Source: Planctomycetaceae bacterium
GTDB lineage: Bacteria; Planctomycetota; Planctomycetia; Planctomycetales; Planctomycetaceae
Length of the DNA stretch: 46,752 nt
Direction of reading: 5' to 3'
Assembly: GCA_021732845.1 (NCBI GenBank)
Contig: JAKFUF010000129.1
Location: forward strand, 1 to 46,752
Within the stretch, counting starts at the first letter, position 1. Every line of letters starts with the position of its first letter. Below are positions 31,626-36,832 of this stretch, one piece after another. The translations under genes and the position numbers were made by a program. The notes below the pieces were generated by a model. That model made no database searches and was not told the DNA's origin. It saw only the letters and a list, made by a program, of their open reading frames with translations.

Positions 31626-32621
31626 TCATTCACGGGGTGCGTTGGCGTTCCACAGGGCTTCAAATTCGGCGAGCATCGCGCGATACATGGGAGACGCTGC
31701 ACGGGATTCCAGCAGCGGAGATCTGGAAGTGCCGTCACCGTAGAGCACCAGGGCGCTGAGCATCATGTGGTCATTGCGGGACTGCTGCTGGTGCAGACAA
31801 CCTGTGCGGATCTGGCGGAACTCGATATTGGGACACTCCTCCGCCAGCTCTTCAAAGAAGGCCAAGGCACCGCCAATGTCGTTTGGCAGTTGATGATGCC
31901 GCTGTCCCACCGAATTGTTCACGTACTGGCCCAGGGCCGGATTCTCGGCATCCATGATGAGCAGGCGGATTTTGCATCCCTGCCGGGCCTTCTCCAACAT
32001 GGTCGGCCGAAACGCATTGATTTTGAGCCACCATCTGAGCGAGACCCCGGACAGGTCAAACGTTTCTTTGGCGTTCCGCAGCAGATCGAGCCACCGCTCG
32101 GTGTTTCCAAAATCCTCGACCTTGTTGTACAGCTTGAACAGTTCCGGTTTGCCGCCAAGGGGTGACAAGTGGCTTCCAAACGGGACCTGGACCTGCCAGT
32201 TGCAGGCCTCCAGATTGCGGACATGGTCAATGATCTGCTTGGAATACACCCTGTCCCGCAGGGGCCGTGGCTTCAGGTCGTATTCGATCGCCCGCAGATC
32301 CCGGATGTCGAACGGGATCGTCTGACCTTTCTCGATCAAGATGATGACCGGACGGGCCGCGCTCTGGGCGATCGCCAGTTCATAAAACACATTCGGGTTG
32401 TGAAACGTCAGCACGGCGATGCACAGATCATCCGTCAAAATCGAACTGAACATCTGGTCGGTGATCCGCCCGATCTGCTGGCTGTGGTCGGCGCGGTACG
32501 CCACGATCCCCAGTTCATCCATGGCCGGCTTGATGATGAAATCCAGCACATCATCCGAATGCTCGCGGACGACGGATCCAGCTTCCCCGATGGGGCTGAT
32601 CACAAAACAGCGTTTGGGCAT
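31626..32621 (-). CDS. TIR/nucleoside-deoxyribosyltransferase-like protein with phospholipase-D-like C-terminus
   Basis: A 331-residue two-domain protein. Residues 1-125 have the pattern of TIR-like/DRHyd predicted nucleotide-binding proteins: RCFVISPIGEAGSVVREHSD, YRADHSQQIGRITDQMF, then HNPNVFYELAIA with E81 in the position of the catalytic glutamate, and PFDIRDLRAIEYDL. Residues about 185-330 resemble a PLD-like (DUF5919-type) domain: RWWLKINAFRPTMLEKARQG, IRLLIMDAENPALG, and a late NDHMMLSALVLYGDGTSRSP block with H285. TIR-like domains in bacterial immunity act as NADases or signal makers. The fusion is inferred to be an effector or sensor. ATG 32621 is preferred over 32678, because GGTGA precedes it and the family begins there. 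Confidence 0.75.
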   Translation of the reverse strand: MPKRCFVISPIGEAGSVVREHSDDVLDFIIKPAMDELGIVAYRADHSQQIGRITDQMFSSILTDDLCIAVLTFHNPNVFYELAIAQSAARPVIILIEKGQTIPFDIRDLRAIEYDLKPRPLRDRVYSKQIIDHVRNLEACNWQVQVPFGSHLSPLGGKPELFKLYNKVEDFGNTERWLDLLRNAKETFDLSGVSLRWWLKINAFRPTMLEKARQGCKIRLLIMDAENPALGQYVNNSVGQRHHQLPNDIGGALAFFEELAEECPNIEFRQIRTGCLHQQQSRNDHMMLSALVLYGDGTSRSPLLESRAASPMYRAMLAEFEALWNANAPRE

Positions 32622-32841
32622 GTGGTCACCGGCTTTCGCGGTTTGGAACGGGGATTCCGCAGCACGGCAACTTAGCACAGCCGGGAAATGCGGTCAAAAC
32701 TGCCGATTGACAGGTTCCCAAAACACCACACAATTAACAATTCATATTCTTGACGTTTTTGTGTTTTTCTTCTTGACTGCCGGGCTGCCCGCCGATACCG
32801 TTGTTTTGAACTGACGTATACCACTCACGAAAGGGGCCGAA

Positions 32842-33990
32842 ATGAAAGCTTGCAACGTGCGTTCGGCGGGGGCGGCTGATTTGATGGGGAACGATTTGGC
32901 GGCACCGATTCCGGCAGGCAAGGGGCGGGTGCGGAAGGAGCGGTCGGACTGCAAGGTCACGGAGGATGAGCTGTACGATTCCATCGTGGCTCACTTTGGG
33001 ATCCTCACTTACGTGGCGATCGCGGTGGGGATCACCCGGCCGGCGCTCTACAAACGGATTGACCGTGCTCCGCGGCTGCAGGCCGCGCGCGACGGGGCGC
33101 GGCGGGTGGTGGTCGACGTGGCGACCTACCATTTGCGCAGGGCCCTGCATGTCGGAACCGCCTGGGCCGTGCAGTTCGCCATGTGCCGGATGGATGGCAT
33201 TCCCCTGTTTTCCATGACGCCCCCACAACCGCCGCAGGAGCCGAGAGAGCCTGGAGCGACGCGCGAGCCACGGGCAGAGCCGCCGGAGGCGGGCAGTCCA
33301 CAGCCAGAGCGTGCGCGAAAGACGATGCTCCGCCTGATCCACGCCGTGGAGCGCGCCGAGCCGTGGGCGGTGAAGTACTGCCTGCGGCATTTGGAGCCGG
33401 CGGTCCGTTACATGACCACACCCGGGGGCACGGGCGTAGAAACACCGCGGACCGAGATTGTTCCCGACCAGCCACCGCGCCTGTGCGAACAGCGGGCCGA
33501 GGCACTGGCGCGGGCCAGCTACGGGCAACTGGTGGGACGGCCGCTGCATGGAAGAGGGAAAACACCCGCCCCTGCCGCCTCCACTCACCCTGAAATTCCG
33601 GCCGAGGCCTCTGCTCCCAGCGACTCCGTTAACCATAAGGGAGATCAGAAACAGACCGCAGGACCGTCGCACCCAATGCTTGAGGAGACGAAGTCCGTCC
33701 CGCCCGCCGTGCCCGATGCACCGGCCTGCGGGGCGAACTTCGCGCCAACTCTTTCGCCAGCGGAGTCGACACCAGGGATGCCGGCCGCGCCGCATCTGCC
33801 GCCGGCTCCCGGACCACATCTGAATACTGCGCCATCCGTAGCTTGCACATCATCCCAGTCTACAAAGCGTCAACCGTCTGTTGCGGGCAGGCAGGACAAG
33901 TCCCACACCGCCGATCGCAAACGAAAACGCCGCGCCCGCGCTGCCTCCCGAAAGCGGGGCAGGCGAAAGGCGCGTTTGAACAGGCGGTGA
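32842..33990 (+). CDS. Helix-turn-helix, terminase-small-subunit-like protein with polybasic tail
   Basis: The 382-residue protein has an N-terminal helical domain (about 37-118) reading KVTEDELYDSIVAHFGILTY, then GITRPALYKRIDRAPRLQAA, then a HLRRALHVGTAWAVQFAMCR segment. This resembles the DNA-binding domain of phage small terminases or resolvase-like helix-turn-helix proteins. A shorter helix pair with similar wording (HAVERAEPWAVKYCLRHLEP, about 167-186) may be a second half-repeat. The rest is Pro/Ala-rich and disordered, ending in an Arg/Lys-rich tail (about 350-382). The gene at 35581-36519 shares the first domain. No phage genes are nearby. AAAGGGG precedes the ATG. The function is unknown, and nucleic-acid binding is likely. 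Confidence 0.7.
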   Translation: MKACNVRSAGAADLMGNDLAAPIPAGKGRVRKERSDCKVTEDELYDSIVAHFGILTYVAIAVGITRPALYKRIDRAPRLQAARDGARRVVVDVATYHLRRALHVGTAWAVQFAMCRMDGIPLFSMTPPQPPQEPREPGATREPRAEPPEAGSPQPERARKTMLRLIHAVERAEPWAVKYCLRHLEPAVRYMTTPGGTGVETPRTEIVPDQPPRLCEQRAEALARASYGQLVGRPLHGRGKTPAPAASTHPEIPAEASAPSDSVNHKGDQKQTAGPSHPMLEETKSVPPAVPDAPACGANFAPTLSPAESTPGMPAAPHLPPAPGPHLNTAPSVACTSSQSTKRQPSVAGRQDKSHTADRKRKRRARAASRKRGRRKARLNRR

Positions 33991-34002
33991 GATTCGACAG
34001 CG

Positions 34003-34112
34003 ATTTTGCTTGCGCGGTGGCTGGCCGATGTGAACGAATCCATGAGCCGGAATGCGTTAGCGCGCGCGTTAGCGTCCGGTTCCGGCAGTCGTCCAACCGG
34101 ACGCCAACCGTC
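34003..34112. repeat. Family 3 repeat, copy with duplicated core
   Basis: It shares its left flank (TTGCTTGCG, then TGGCTGGCCGATGTGAACGA) and CATGAGCCGGAA core with the copy at 25855-25960. The GCGTTAGCG core is duplicated here (GCGTTAGCGCGCGCGTTAGC), and the right arm has decayed. Confidence 0.8.
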
Positions 34113-34186
34113 GTCAGGGACGACGAATGAAGGGGCCGGTCAAGTCGGCCGGTCTGGCAAGTCGGTCCGTAAACCGTACGGTCAGA

Positions 34187-34250
34187 AATTGAACCACGAA
34201 TCTTACGAATCTCACGAATCAACAACCAGCTTCGCATCGCGAGTGAGGAC
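34187..34250. repeat. Short family 2 fragment (ACGAATC repeats)
   Basis: The stretch ACCACGAATCTTACGAATCT, followed by CAACAACCAGCTTCGCATCG, matches the first part of family 2 at 15785-15850 and 34898-34941. It is truncated and joined directly to a family 3 copy. Confidence 0.75.
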
Positions 34251-34251
34251 C

Positions 34252-34456
34252 GCGGCAAGAATAACGGTCGACTCTTGACAAGCCGTACAGCCAATGAGCC
34301 GGAGGGCCTTAGCCCCCGGTTGGAGGAAAATCGGAAGGCGCCATCGCCACGAACCGGACGCTAACGCGCGCTAACGCGTGCCGGCTGATGAATCTGCCCT
34401 CAATCAGCATCCATCCCAATCAACTTCACCATGTTATTATTGCCGCGATCCTGACG
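34252..34456. repeat. Family 3 repeat, composite copy
   Basis: The left part (34252-34317) is the reverse complement of 121-190. The right part ends with AACCGGACGCTAACGCGCGC, then TAACGCGTGCCGGCTGATGA. The terminal TTATTATTGCCGCGATCCTG motif (34433-34452) matches other family 3 borders. The two arms carry different cores (GGCCTTAGCCCC and GACGCTAACGCG), so it looks like a hybrid of two subtypes. Confidence 0.75.
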
Positions 34457-34484
34457 AGATCCATCTTGTTGAGATTCGTGTTAG

Positions 34485-34871
34485 GGCCGGAGAAAGAATA
34501 ACTGTCGCATTCTCGGAACGAATGACTCTCGCGGGCGACGATGCCAAAAGATCATCCCGGAGGGATGAAAGCTCTTAGCCGGGGGTTGAGCGAAGCGACA
34601 CCCCCGGTCATGGACCGACATGAGATCCGATCCCGGAGGGATCGCAGCATCTGGCGAGCAACGGTGCTGGCACCCCTGCCGGGGTGCATTCGTCGCTTTT
34701 GCCTTTCCGGGGGTGTCGCTTCGTGTCTGTCGACACTTCGCTCAACCCCCGGCTAAGAGCTGTGATCCCTCCGGGATCATCCTTGGTCACGCCGTGCCTA
34801 TCAGAGCGGCGCTCTTGTGTCGTCATCAACGCACCGACACAAACTTCACTTTTATTGATGATGCGATCCTG
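34485..34871. repeat. Family 1 long palindromic repeat, copy D
   Basis: Full copy from GGCCGGAGAAAGAATAACTG to ATTGATGATGCGATCCTGA. Both long arms (about 34549-34605 and 34706-34787) and the internal GGCACCCCTGCCGGGGTGC hairpin are intact. The terminal motif reads CCTGA instead of CCTTA, and no gene ends here. Confidence 0.9.
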
Positions 34872-34889
34872 AAGCGTGCCTTTATTCTT

Positions 34890-35325
34890 TGTCCGGTCCT
34901 TACGAATCTCACGAATCAACAACCAGCTTCGCATCGCGAGTGACAAGATCCATCGTGTTGTGATTCGTGTTATTCGAATTATTCGTACTACTAACCGTCA
35001 GGTTGTTGGCGTGCCGCGACGATTTGGCCAGCGTGTGCTGGAAATCAGTGATCAATAGCGGGTTCTGCTTCTGGTCAGACTCTGGCCAACCGCCCCAACG
35101 GGGTGAGATTCATTGAACATCCGGCAAACATCACGGGTCACGCCCCGATTGGGGCTCCGTCGTTCGTCGTCATTGCACCCAGGGCTCCGTTGGCGTTGCC
35201 AACTTCGCCCTGGGCTATCGAATTCTGCCCCCTTGGGGCTGACGATGCGACACTCCGGGTGTTGGGTTTCGGGCAAGCCCGCGCCATGAACATTCGTGGT
35301 TCCCTTTCTCGCTGCCCAAGATCGG
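34890..35325. repeat. Family 2 repeat, copy with internal deletion
   Basis: Closely matches 15800-16320 but lacks the 86 bp between the two GCCCCAACGGGG blocks; here one block (about 35092-35103) is followed directly by TGAGATTC. The deletion is what recombination or slippage between the 12-bp direct repeats would leave. Beyond about 35325 the copies diverge. Confidence 0.88.
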
Positions 35326-35580
35326 CCCTCAGACGGCATTTTTGAGGCGGACATTGATTCGAGAATATTCGTGGTCCCGTACGCCGGGTGTGCCACTGGT
35401 CAGCTCGCTGCCAGTGCGAACGATTGACGACTTCGCCCTCAGGAAAGCACCCTTCTTGAGGTCGCTTCATTGCCAGGAGTCGAGCCCCGTTCGCACTGGC
35501 AGATAAACTGACCGGTGGCACCAGGCCTGAACGAAACATTGTTTCAACATTCAACATTTCTCAATATCAGGAGTTCAATC

Positions 35581-36519
35581 ATGACAGATGAACATTGCCC
35601 GGACTCGAATGCTTCCATCGAGGAGCGTGACGACGGTTCGCGGGCTGCTGAGCCACGGCGGGAGGAACGCAGAGTGCGTGACACGCGGTTTCAGACGTGG
35701 CGGGAGGGGCGGGAGTGGAGTTTGACCGACGAGGAACTGGTCGACACCCTCGAACGGGAATATGGGGAGGTGGTGTTTGTCGCCCAGCGGCTCGGATTTC
35801 CCGAGGAGTTTGTCCGCGAGCAGGTCGCCAAATCCGCGCGGGCACAAATGGTCATTGGTTGGCAGGCGGAGAATGAGCGTGCCTTCGCCCGGCGGCATTT
35901 CCGGGCGGCCCTGTATGGCGGTCAGTATTGGGCCGTGAGCCACCAGATCCGCAAGATGCACCGCGAAGAACGCGAGGTGCGTGATGATCAGCGATACAAG
36001 ACCCGCCTGGCCCTCAAGGCGGCGTATGCCGCACGAACCGTGGCTCAACCCGCGGCCGCCGAAATCCTCCCGGCACCTTCGATCTCCGTGGCTCCCGCCC
36101 CGCACTCCGCACCAAGTGTCGATCTCGCGCCTGAGGCCTGCGTGCCAGACTCCGCCGCCGAAATCCCCGTCAACGCCGATGCCACCGTCACCGCGGCGGA
36201 AAGTGGCTCGGCCTTGCCCGAGAAGGTGGCGTTCACTCCCGAGCAGGAGGCCCAGCGGGCCGAAATTCTGCAGCAGAGAGCCTGGCGGGAGCTGCACCTG
36301 GACCGCTTTTTAGAACACCAGCAAATGGTGGAAGGCGGCTCTCCCACAAACAAATTGCGGGACGCCGGCTATCTGCCCCCAACCGTGAAGAAACAAATGG
36401 AACGGGCCGGCCACGATCCGGTTCGCCAGCCCAACGACGGCCCCCACGGATTATTCCGCCGGCTGCCAGCGGAAGAGAACGGAATGAGTCCGGCGGATAG
36501 CACCAACGCGGCGGACTGA
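35581..36519 (+). CDS. Helix-turn-helix, terminase-small-subunit-like protein, second paralogue
   Basis: The 312-residue protein starts at ATG 35581 behind a clear AGGAG. An acidic/basic leader (1-45) is followed by a helical domain (about 47-126) beginning SLTDEELVDTLEREYGEVVF, then ARRHFRAALYGGQYWAVSHQ. This aligns with the domain of the protein at 32842-33990 without gaps: T-(D/E)-(D/E)-E-L-x-D, VAxxxGxxxxxV, and the (L/F)RxALxxGxxWAV block. A Pro/Ala linker (about 150-230) leads to a C-terminal helical part (about 240-300, RAWRELHLDRFLEHQQMVEG) that the other protein lacks. The family is unrecognised; DNA binding is inferred. Confidence 0.7.
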   Translation: MTDEHCPDSNASIEERDDGSRAAEPRREERRVRDTRFQTWREGREWSLTDEELVDTLEREYGEVVFVAQRLGFPEEFVREQVAKSARAQMVIGWQAENERAFARRHFRAALYGGQYWAVSHQIRKMHREEREVRDDQRYKTRLALKAAYAARTVAQPAAAEILPAPSISVAPAPHSAPSVDLAPEACVPDSAAEIPVNADATVTAAESGSALPEKVAFTPEQEAQRAEILQQRAWRELHLDRFLEHQQMVEGGSPTNKLRDAGYLPPTVKKQMERAGHDPVRQPNDGPHGLFRRLPAEENGMSPADSTNAAD

Positions 36520-36534
36520 ATGACCGGAAGGTGG

Positions 36535-36832
36535 GCGCAAGCCCTCGTTGTTACACACAAGTTGCCGACATCGGGGATTTCATGGTGCCGACCCACAGGC
36601 CGACGTGGCGGGAGGGCGCGGCTCCTGCCGAGCCGCGAGCAAGAAAACACACGGTCTTTACGGCGAATCTGGCCCCGTTCGTGAGGGGAAGGCGGCGAGA
36701 CGCGGGCACGCACTGTTGACCGCGGCTCAGCAGGAGCTTCGCCCTCCCGCCACGTCGACATAGAATCAAACCCTACCACTTGCCGCGTGGCCAATGCCCC
36801 TGTCGACTTGTGTGTAACAGCGAGGGCCTGAA
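36535..36832. repeat. Family 4 nested palindromic repeat
   Basis: Outer arms 36539-36562 and 36806-36829 pair with two mismatches in 24 (AGCCCTCGTTGTTACACACA side). Inner arms CGACGTGGCGGGAGGGCG (36601-36618) and 36740-36757 pair perfectly, and 36621-36637 pairs with 36721-36737 with one mismatch. It begins 16 bp after the stop of the 35581 gene. No gene is visible between 36520 and 37072. Confidence 0.85.

Follow-up and report, generated by a model that had tools for sequence, protein, structure and literature searches.

Here we describe a family of small-terminase-like proteins encoded by a Planctomycetaceae bacterium (assembly GCA_021732845.1), starting from two members, P1 and P2, in a 46,752-nt stretch of contig JAKFUF010000129.1 (the window). 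P1 and P2 lie on the same strand and flank 1.59 kb without a long gene. Judged by profile comparison, the domain that they share is a phage small-terminase (TerS) domain. Phage TerS normally selects DNA for packaging and adjoins its large subunit; here the TerS DNA-binding core occurs outside a packaging context, in many copies and apparently under purifying selection, amplified in one genome as far as searched. We lean towards the reading that the P1/P2 family consists of domesticated, lineage-specific, amplified stand-alone DNA-binding proteins that derive from the small terminase of a tailed phage. Such a family would be a natural experiment in the domestication of a phage DNA-selection module and in gene-family growth in repeat-rich space.

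P1 and P2 share a small-terminase core

32842..33990, + strand: P1, family member, 382 aa (open frame; viral TerS profile match)
32950..33192, + strand: TerS-like core of P1 (residues 37–117), with helix-turn-helix, long helix and WAVQF helix (alignment, model)
33319..33411, + strand: second, WAVKYCL helical half-domain of P1 (residues 160–190; family alignment, model)
33910..33987, + strand: polybasic C terminus of P1 (residues 357–382; sequence)
35581..36519, + strand: P2, diverged family member, 312 aa (AGGAG at 35569 ahead of the ATG)
35701..35958, + strand: TerS-like core of P2 (residues 41–126; BLASTP, profile)
36292..36516, + strand: conserved C-terminal part of P2 (residues 238–312; recurrence on other contigs)

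Residues 32–117 of P1 align with residues 41–126 of P2 over 86 positions without gaps, at 24% identity (BLASTP, single comparison, E = 2e-7), and the Smith–Waterman score of the two domains, 83, exceeds all 2000 shuffles (27.5 ± 4.5, maximum 51). When P2 and its nearest relative, L084, were left out of the family profile, it still recovered both among 6270 open reading frames (ORFs), L084 at E = 9.4e-11 and P2 at E = 2.7e-5. An earlier sequence-only reading of the window had proposed two paralogues with a gapless common domain and had expected the two domains to find each other in iterative searches; since P2 was recovered by a profile that lacks it, this part is borne out. The polybasic tail that it had described for one of the two proteins is present in P1, and a similar basic tail ends most of the paralogues that form group A of the family (exceptions, L047 and L048). 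The C-terminal part of P2 is 47–76% identical to fragments on contigs C39, C73 and C141.

The label 'small-terminase-like', given in the same reading, is upheld by viral homologues. A profile of 45 viral TerS sequences, which had been aligned jointly with P1 and P2 before the search, matched P1 at E = 1.9e-17 and P2 at E = 2e-6 among the 6270 ORFs, and found 59 family ORFs at E ≤ 0.01. Solo homologues led to 149 viral loci, and among the best 80 of these, 74 have an ORF resembling the large terminase subunit (TerL) within flanks of at most 3 kb, always on the same strand.

The AlphaFold model of the P1 domain (mean predicted local distance difference test score (pLDDT) 76; block values of 89–98 over domain residues 11–90) contains three helices of a helix-turn-helix (H16–25, H30–37 and H41–50), followed by a long helix and the WAVQF helix. 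A second helix pair (H130–146 and H149–164), modelled at lower confidence (block pLDDT of about 63–68, below 50 at the end), agrees with the second WAVKYCL half-domain seen in the family alignment at about residues 160–190 of P1. Among viral models, Foldseek matched the P1 model to an unnamed 119-aa viral protein (82 columns, 1.3 Å, E = 9.6e-4) and to an annotated terminase small subunit (82 columns, 1.7 Å, E = 0.03). The small terminases of phBC6A51 and Sf6 are among its weak matches in the PDB; in a second comparison with PDB chains, Sf6 TerS reached Z = 5.3, below plain helix-turn-helix domains (Z up to 6.7).

Neither Pfam nor PHROGs gave a confident family for P1 or P2. A P22_Cro match in the Pfam scan of P1 and P2 was under its cut-off, HTH_8 was found in 8 of 21 family members (best E = 2.7e-5), the unnamed family phrog_33852 matched 12 of 21 members (best E = 9.6e-5), and the PHROGs matches of P2 to scaffold and excisionase families were weak. 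Pfam assigned neither P1 nor P2 a catalytic domain, and even at E up to 10 neither protein matched a recombinase or transposase domain; none of eight family proteins matched a PADLOC defence model at E = 0.01, and searching the sequences of solved structures with a profile gave no confident family either.

The family is amplified in one genome

The family profile matches 64 places in the 9.25-Mb genome at E = 1e-3, in several subfamilies (150 of 204 candidates scored); 47 of the 64 span 148 or more of the 157 profile positions, and two are parts of one ORF on contig C1. P1 as a lone query matched 72 places at E up to 10. In a tree that has few columns for its number of rows and from which fragments were left out, groups A (18 rows), D (14), C (9, support 79) and E (4) stand apart and group B is split; P1 clusters with groups A, B and C (support 97) and P2 with L084 (99), and group E falls among phage rows without a resolved position.

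P1 and P2 as queries had no match in 39 relatives. Within the order, a 21-member profile matched 12 other genomes of 170; the weakest two matches, in G084 and G058, correspond to helix-turn-helix ends of sigma-54-type regulators; each of the remaining ten genomes carries one to three apparent TerS genes. The class sample gave 14 other genomes of 397, with one match each at E = 1e-6, and the phylum sample (392 genomes) gave just the genome itself and one solo TerS at the same threshold. No comparable expansion was thus seen elsewhere in these overlapping samples, for which at most 21 (order), 9 (class) and 9 (phylum) candidates were scored per genome, so weak family members may be missed. Two pattern scans of one genome per species (84,980 species), from which records near the window were possibly excluded, found none; a phage collection gave six weak Rhizobium phage records (E = 0.7–0.8) and a plasmid collection no match. 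No earlier report of such a family, and no precedent for sixty TerS-like genes per genome, was found in the open-access papers searched.

Family copies stand apart from a large terminase

No TerL-like ORF is present in the window or in any of 60 other family regions. The earlier claim that the window holds no phage structural genes therefore stands for TerL, the only one for which the window was searched. Two terminase families searched genome-wide found one TerL in the genome, in a TerL–portal–tail tube cluster beside kdpA on contig C10, and the surrounding C10:18–58 kb contains no family member.

Neighbours of related loci in other genomes were scanned with Pfam. Ten neighbouring ORFs from seven loci gave a terminase large subunit at L132, L139 and L141 and a portal at L135, and nothing phage-like at L142, L133 and L134. 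Ten neighbours from nine further loci gave terminase domains at L182, L183, L184, L174, L172 and L179, a portal at L180, an integrase at L175 and no match at L173.

The C10 cluster (G000:C10:38000-50600, L165) encodes a head–tail adaptor, a tail tube/minor tail protein, a large terminase and a Mu-type portal. A glycosyltransferase gene separates the tail tube gene from the terminase gene, and kdpA comes after the cluster together with a P-type ATPase gene. Homologues of its large terminase, mostly in frames of ~500–570 aa, occur in 15 of 24 genomes of the same family (G001–G024), as a single match in 12 of the 15. This cluster could itself be a conserved domesticated phage cluster.

A promoter motif precedes most genes tested, and the conserved core carries fast-changing tails

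32773..32801, + strand: sigma-70-like promoter of P1, TTGACT, 17 bases, TACCGT (sequence)
32816..32821, + strand: GTATAC, matching the GTAYMY motif that family genes have near the promoter (sequence)

Both elements recur in the family. A sigma-70-like motif lies upstream of 42 of 52 family genes versus 11 of 142 random genes, and GTAYMY lies within the last 70 bases before 37 of 52 versus 6 of 142; both motifs were picked after the family had been viewed, and gene starts were set at the first ATG.

Substitution ratios indicate that the core is conserved under purifying selection and that the predicted disordered tails change fast. Across 16 group A genes, the domain has a nonsynonymous rate (dN) of 0.014, a synonymous rate (dS) of 0.25 and a ratio of 0.054, versus a ratio of 0.56 for the tail; this first run was made without L036 and L045, both missed by the start motif. 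The tails are rich in alanine and proline, and 48 of 57 have the motif APP[VI], with 134 occurrences in all versus 2.3 expected by shuffling, an expectation to be read with the relatedness of the tails in mind. Tail repeats of ~171–190 bp, in varying copy number and in open frames, were observed in L060, L064, L067, L070, L072, L076, L079 and L080, and the tail of L063 appears, by eye, to hold translated dispersed-repeat sequence.

Copies show signs of recombination with their flanks

Homology between group A copies stops sharply. In 101 of 144 pairs the left end lies 150–169 bp before the domain start, about 100 bp before the ATG, and in 75 of 153 the right end falls no more than 50 bp before the ORF end, near the stop codon; in groups C and D the ends are scattered. 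By eye, group A flanks fall into two types on the left and two on the right, and the types occur in all four combinations, which points to recombination between flanks and gene; likewise by eye, neither a constant terminal inverted repeat nor a target duplication is visible at group A ends. Across the gene, L053, L054 and L055 share about 99% identity, yet L054 has a different promoter region. L082 and L083, 99.9% identical, both lie on contig C63, inverted, toward opposite ends and with matching flanks.

For 31 of 59 copies a contig end is at most 3 kb away, with 10 expected, and because of this excess the assembly may lack some copies. Among 360 neighbouring ORFs there is no constant neighbour: the most widespread cluster, a DUF1501-like gene, occurs at 10 loci, and the recurring neighbours are only apparent common multi-copy genes and repeat-derived ORFs.

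Dispersed repeats share the intergenic habitat of the family

33991..35580, unstranded: dispersed-repeat cluster, a mosaic of several families (repeat tracing)
35178..35240, + strand: Acido-Lenti-1-like RNA motif inside one dispersed repeat (RF01687, 36.1 bits, E = 1.1e-5; gathering score 37)

The 1.6-kb repeat cluster noted earlier between P1 and P2 exists, and its possible binding by the two proteins had been proposed. The window repeats are dispersed, with 121 matches genome-wide in a tracing that scored 40 of 544 candidates. Repeats of any kind cover 40% of the 600 bp upstream and 29% of the 600 bp downstream of family genes, versus 7.7% and 9.4% for random genes, and upstream repeats of at least 40 bp accompany 38 of 52 family genes versus 37 of 153 random genes; the random regions are interior to large contigs, which may exaggerate these contrasts. 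Random intergenic gaps have a coverage of 13–25%.

Of 39 merged islands of window repeats, seven have a family gene no more than 1.5 kb away, versus 0.9 expected genome-wide and 6.2 expected if islands are intergenic only (P = 0.43, a crude value from a rough test that used 41 of the 121 matches, the best per place with the query's own place omitted, and assumed a 12% intergenic fraction). Four of the seven are at nearly equal distance from group D genes and are probably one duplicated arrangement, and subfamilies differ in which window repeats lie nearby. Because the island count is close to the intergenic expectation, we conclude that proximity reflects a shared intergenic habitat and not a dedicated protein–repeat pair; the proposed binding finds no backing here.

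An inverted-repeat element of the dispersed type, GGGAGGGC...GCCCTCCC, lies at 36586–36775, directly downstream of P2. Around the P1/P2 locus, Pfam identifies two DUF1501 genes and one CotH gene, which together are suggestive of a planctomycete. A 350-aa protein encoded at 31626–32678 on the − strand has no Pfam match at E = 1e-3; its start presumably resembles a nucleoside-deoxyribosyltransferase/TIR-like effector.

Interpretation and alternatives

If the family has been domesticated as we favour, the helix-turn-helix would still bind a DNA site, the TerS helices would still multimerise, and the disordered APPV-rich tail, basic-ended in group A, may contact DNA or partners. Their role might then lie not in packaging but in auto-regulated control of genes or in shaping the nucleoid. 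We infer binding, multimerisation and regulation by analogy with TerS biology. The surrounding repeats would be ordinary dispersed elements in the same intergenic space that probably help copies to recombine. More tentatively, and with distinctly less confidence than in domestication as such, we suggest that a phage TerS gave rise to about sixty recombining promoter-plus-gene cassettes with a fixed multimerising core and changing tails, which would form either a nucleoid or regulatory network or a self-spreading cassette.

Several observations weigh against domestication. The P1 model has no significant match in the PDB (best Foldseek E = 0.32). No TTGAC lies within 150 bp of the assumed start of P2 and nine other tested genes. 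The domain ratio of dN to dS is 0.27–0.38 in groups other than A, and that of group A rises to 0.15 when P1 and the two initially omitted genes are added (in a second run restricted to pairs with dS of 0.02–1.5), so constraint there is only moderate. The tail could be insertion-tolerant filler. Among the 64 places, 17 represent partial or second matches, and some of these contain a stop.

A rather unlikely alternative, still the strongest of the rivals, is that the promoter-plus-gene unit is a selfish self-spreading cassette or the cargo of an unknown mobile system, its protein aiding its own copying in repeat islands and serving no host function. The about sixty places without such an expansion in the relatives searched, the sharp group A edges, the flank types in all four combinations, the excess of copies near contig ends and the upstream repeat enrichment are what one would expect of it. 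The absence of a Pfam recombinase or transposase domain from P1 and P2, the fact that no constant inverted repeat or target duplication was seen by eye at group A ends and the scattered ends of groups C and D speak against it, and an accumulation of repeats next to a conserved promoter and gene can likewise leave sharp edges. The earlier suggestion of an unrecognised mobile element may still hold: copy number, sharp edges and shuffled flanks in group A agree with it, but Pfam found no catalytic domain in either protein and constant terminal repeats were not seen.

Two further explanations appear improbable to a similar degree. TerS-like proteins might act as packaging tags that steer host or satellite DNA into particles of a helper phage or of the resident large-terminase cluster; the core is a true TerS core and one TerL–portal–tail tube cluster is available at about C10:38–51 kb. 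A packaging role is nevertheless unlikely because no TerL-like ORF lies beside the copies examined and no family member beside the C10 TerL; in addition, the region through which phage TerS contacts TerL is apparently replaced by the disordered tail, and sixty TerS-like genes per genome are without precedent in the open-access literature searched. Equally, P1 and P2 might form a protein–repeat system by binding the repeats between them, for which the high repeat coverage around family genes argues; the dispersal of the repeats, the near-expected island count with four of its seven cases probably one arrangement, the differences among subfamilies and the perhaps exaggerated contrast with random regions argue against it.

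Comparison with known systems

Phage satellites such as phage-inducible chromosomal islands (PICIs) carry a TerS gene separate from the full phage, together with further genes and a packaging site. Unlike these, the family genes look solitary, and the linked packaging genes that mark gene transfer agents (GTAs) and satellites were not found, in that neither the window nor the 60 family regions contain a TerL-like ORF. RcGTA gp1 is a phage TerS that a host has co-opted, as we propose for the family; a passage of PMC6854486 describes it as part of a GTA and as apparently without a helix-turn-helix, whereas the helix-turn-helix of the family is well conserved and no GTA cluster is linked to it.

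The repeats between P1 and P2 resemble, by description, repetitive extragenic palindromic and bacterial interspersed mosaic elements (REP/BIME) in being palindromic, dispersed and extragenic, but consist of several longer families in mosaic islands. Palindromic repeats of the REP/BIME type are reported in Planctomycetes in a passage of PMC3733652.

In architecture the core resembles the TerS of tailed phages (Sf6 gp1, phBC6A51-type), which likewise consists of a helix-turn-helix, then a long helix and then a WAVxFxL helix. TerS is described, in part of PMC6854486, as a helix-turn-helix with an oligomerisation domain that forms rings of 8–11 subunits proposed to wrap DNA. In contrast to phage TerS, which adjoins a large terminase at 74 of 80 viral loci, the family does so in none of 60 regions or the window; the C-terminal half of its core is duplicated, with an altered LKTxGKxRGY end, and a long disordered tail, a promoter of its own for most genes tested and the about sixty places in one genome set it apart further.

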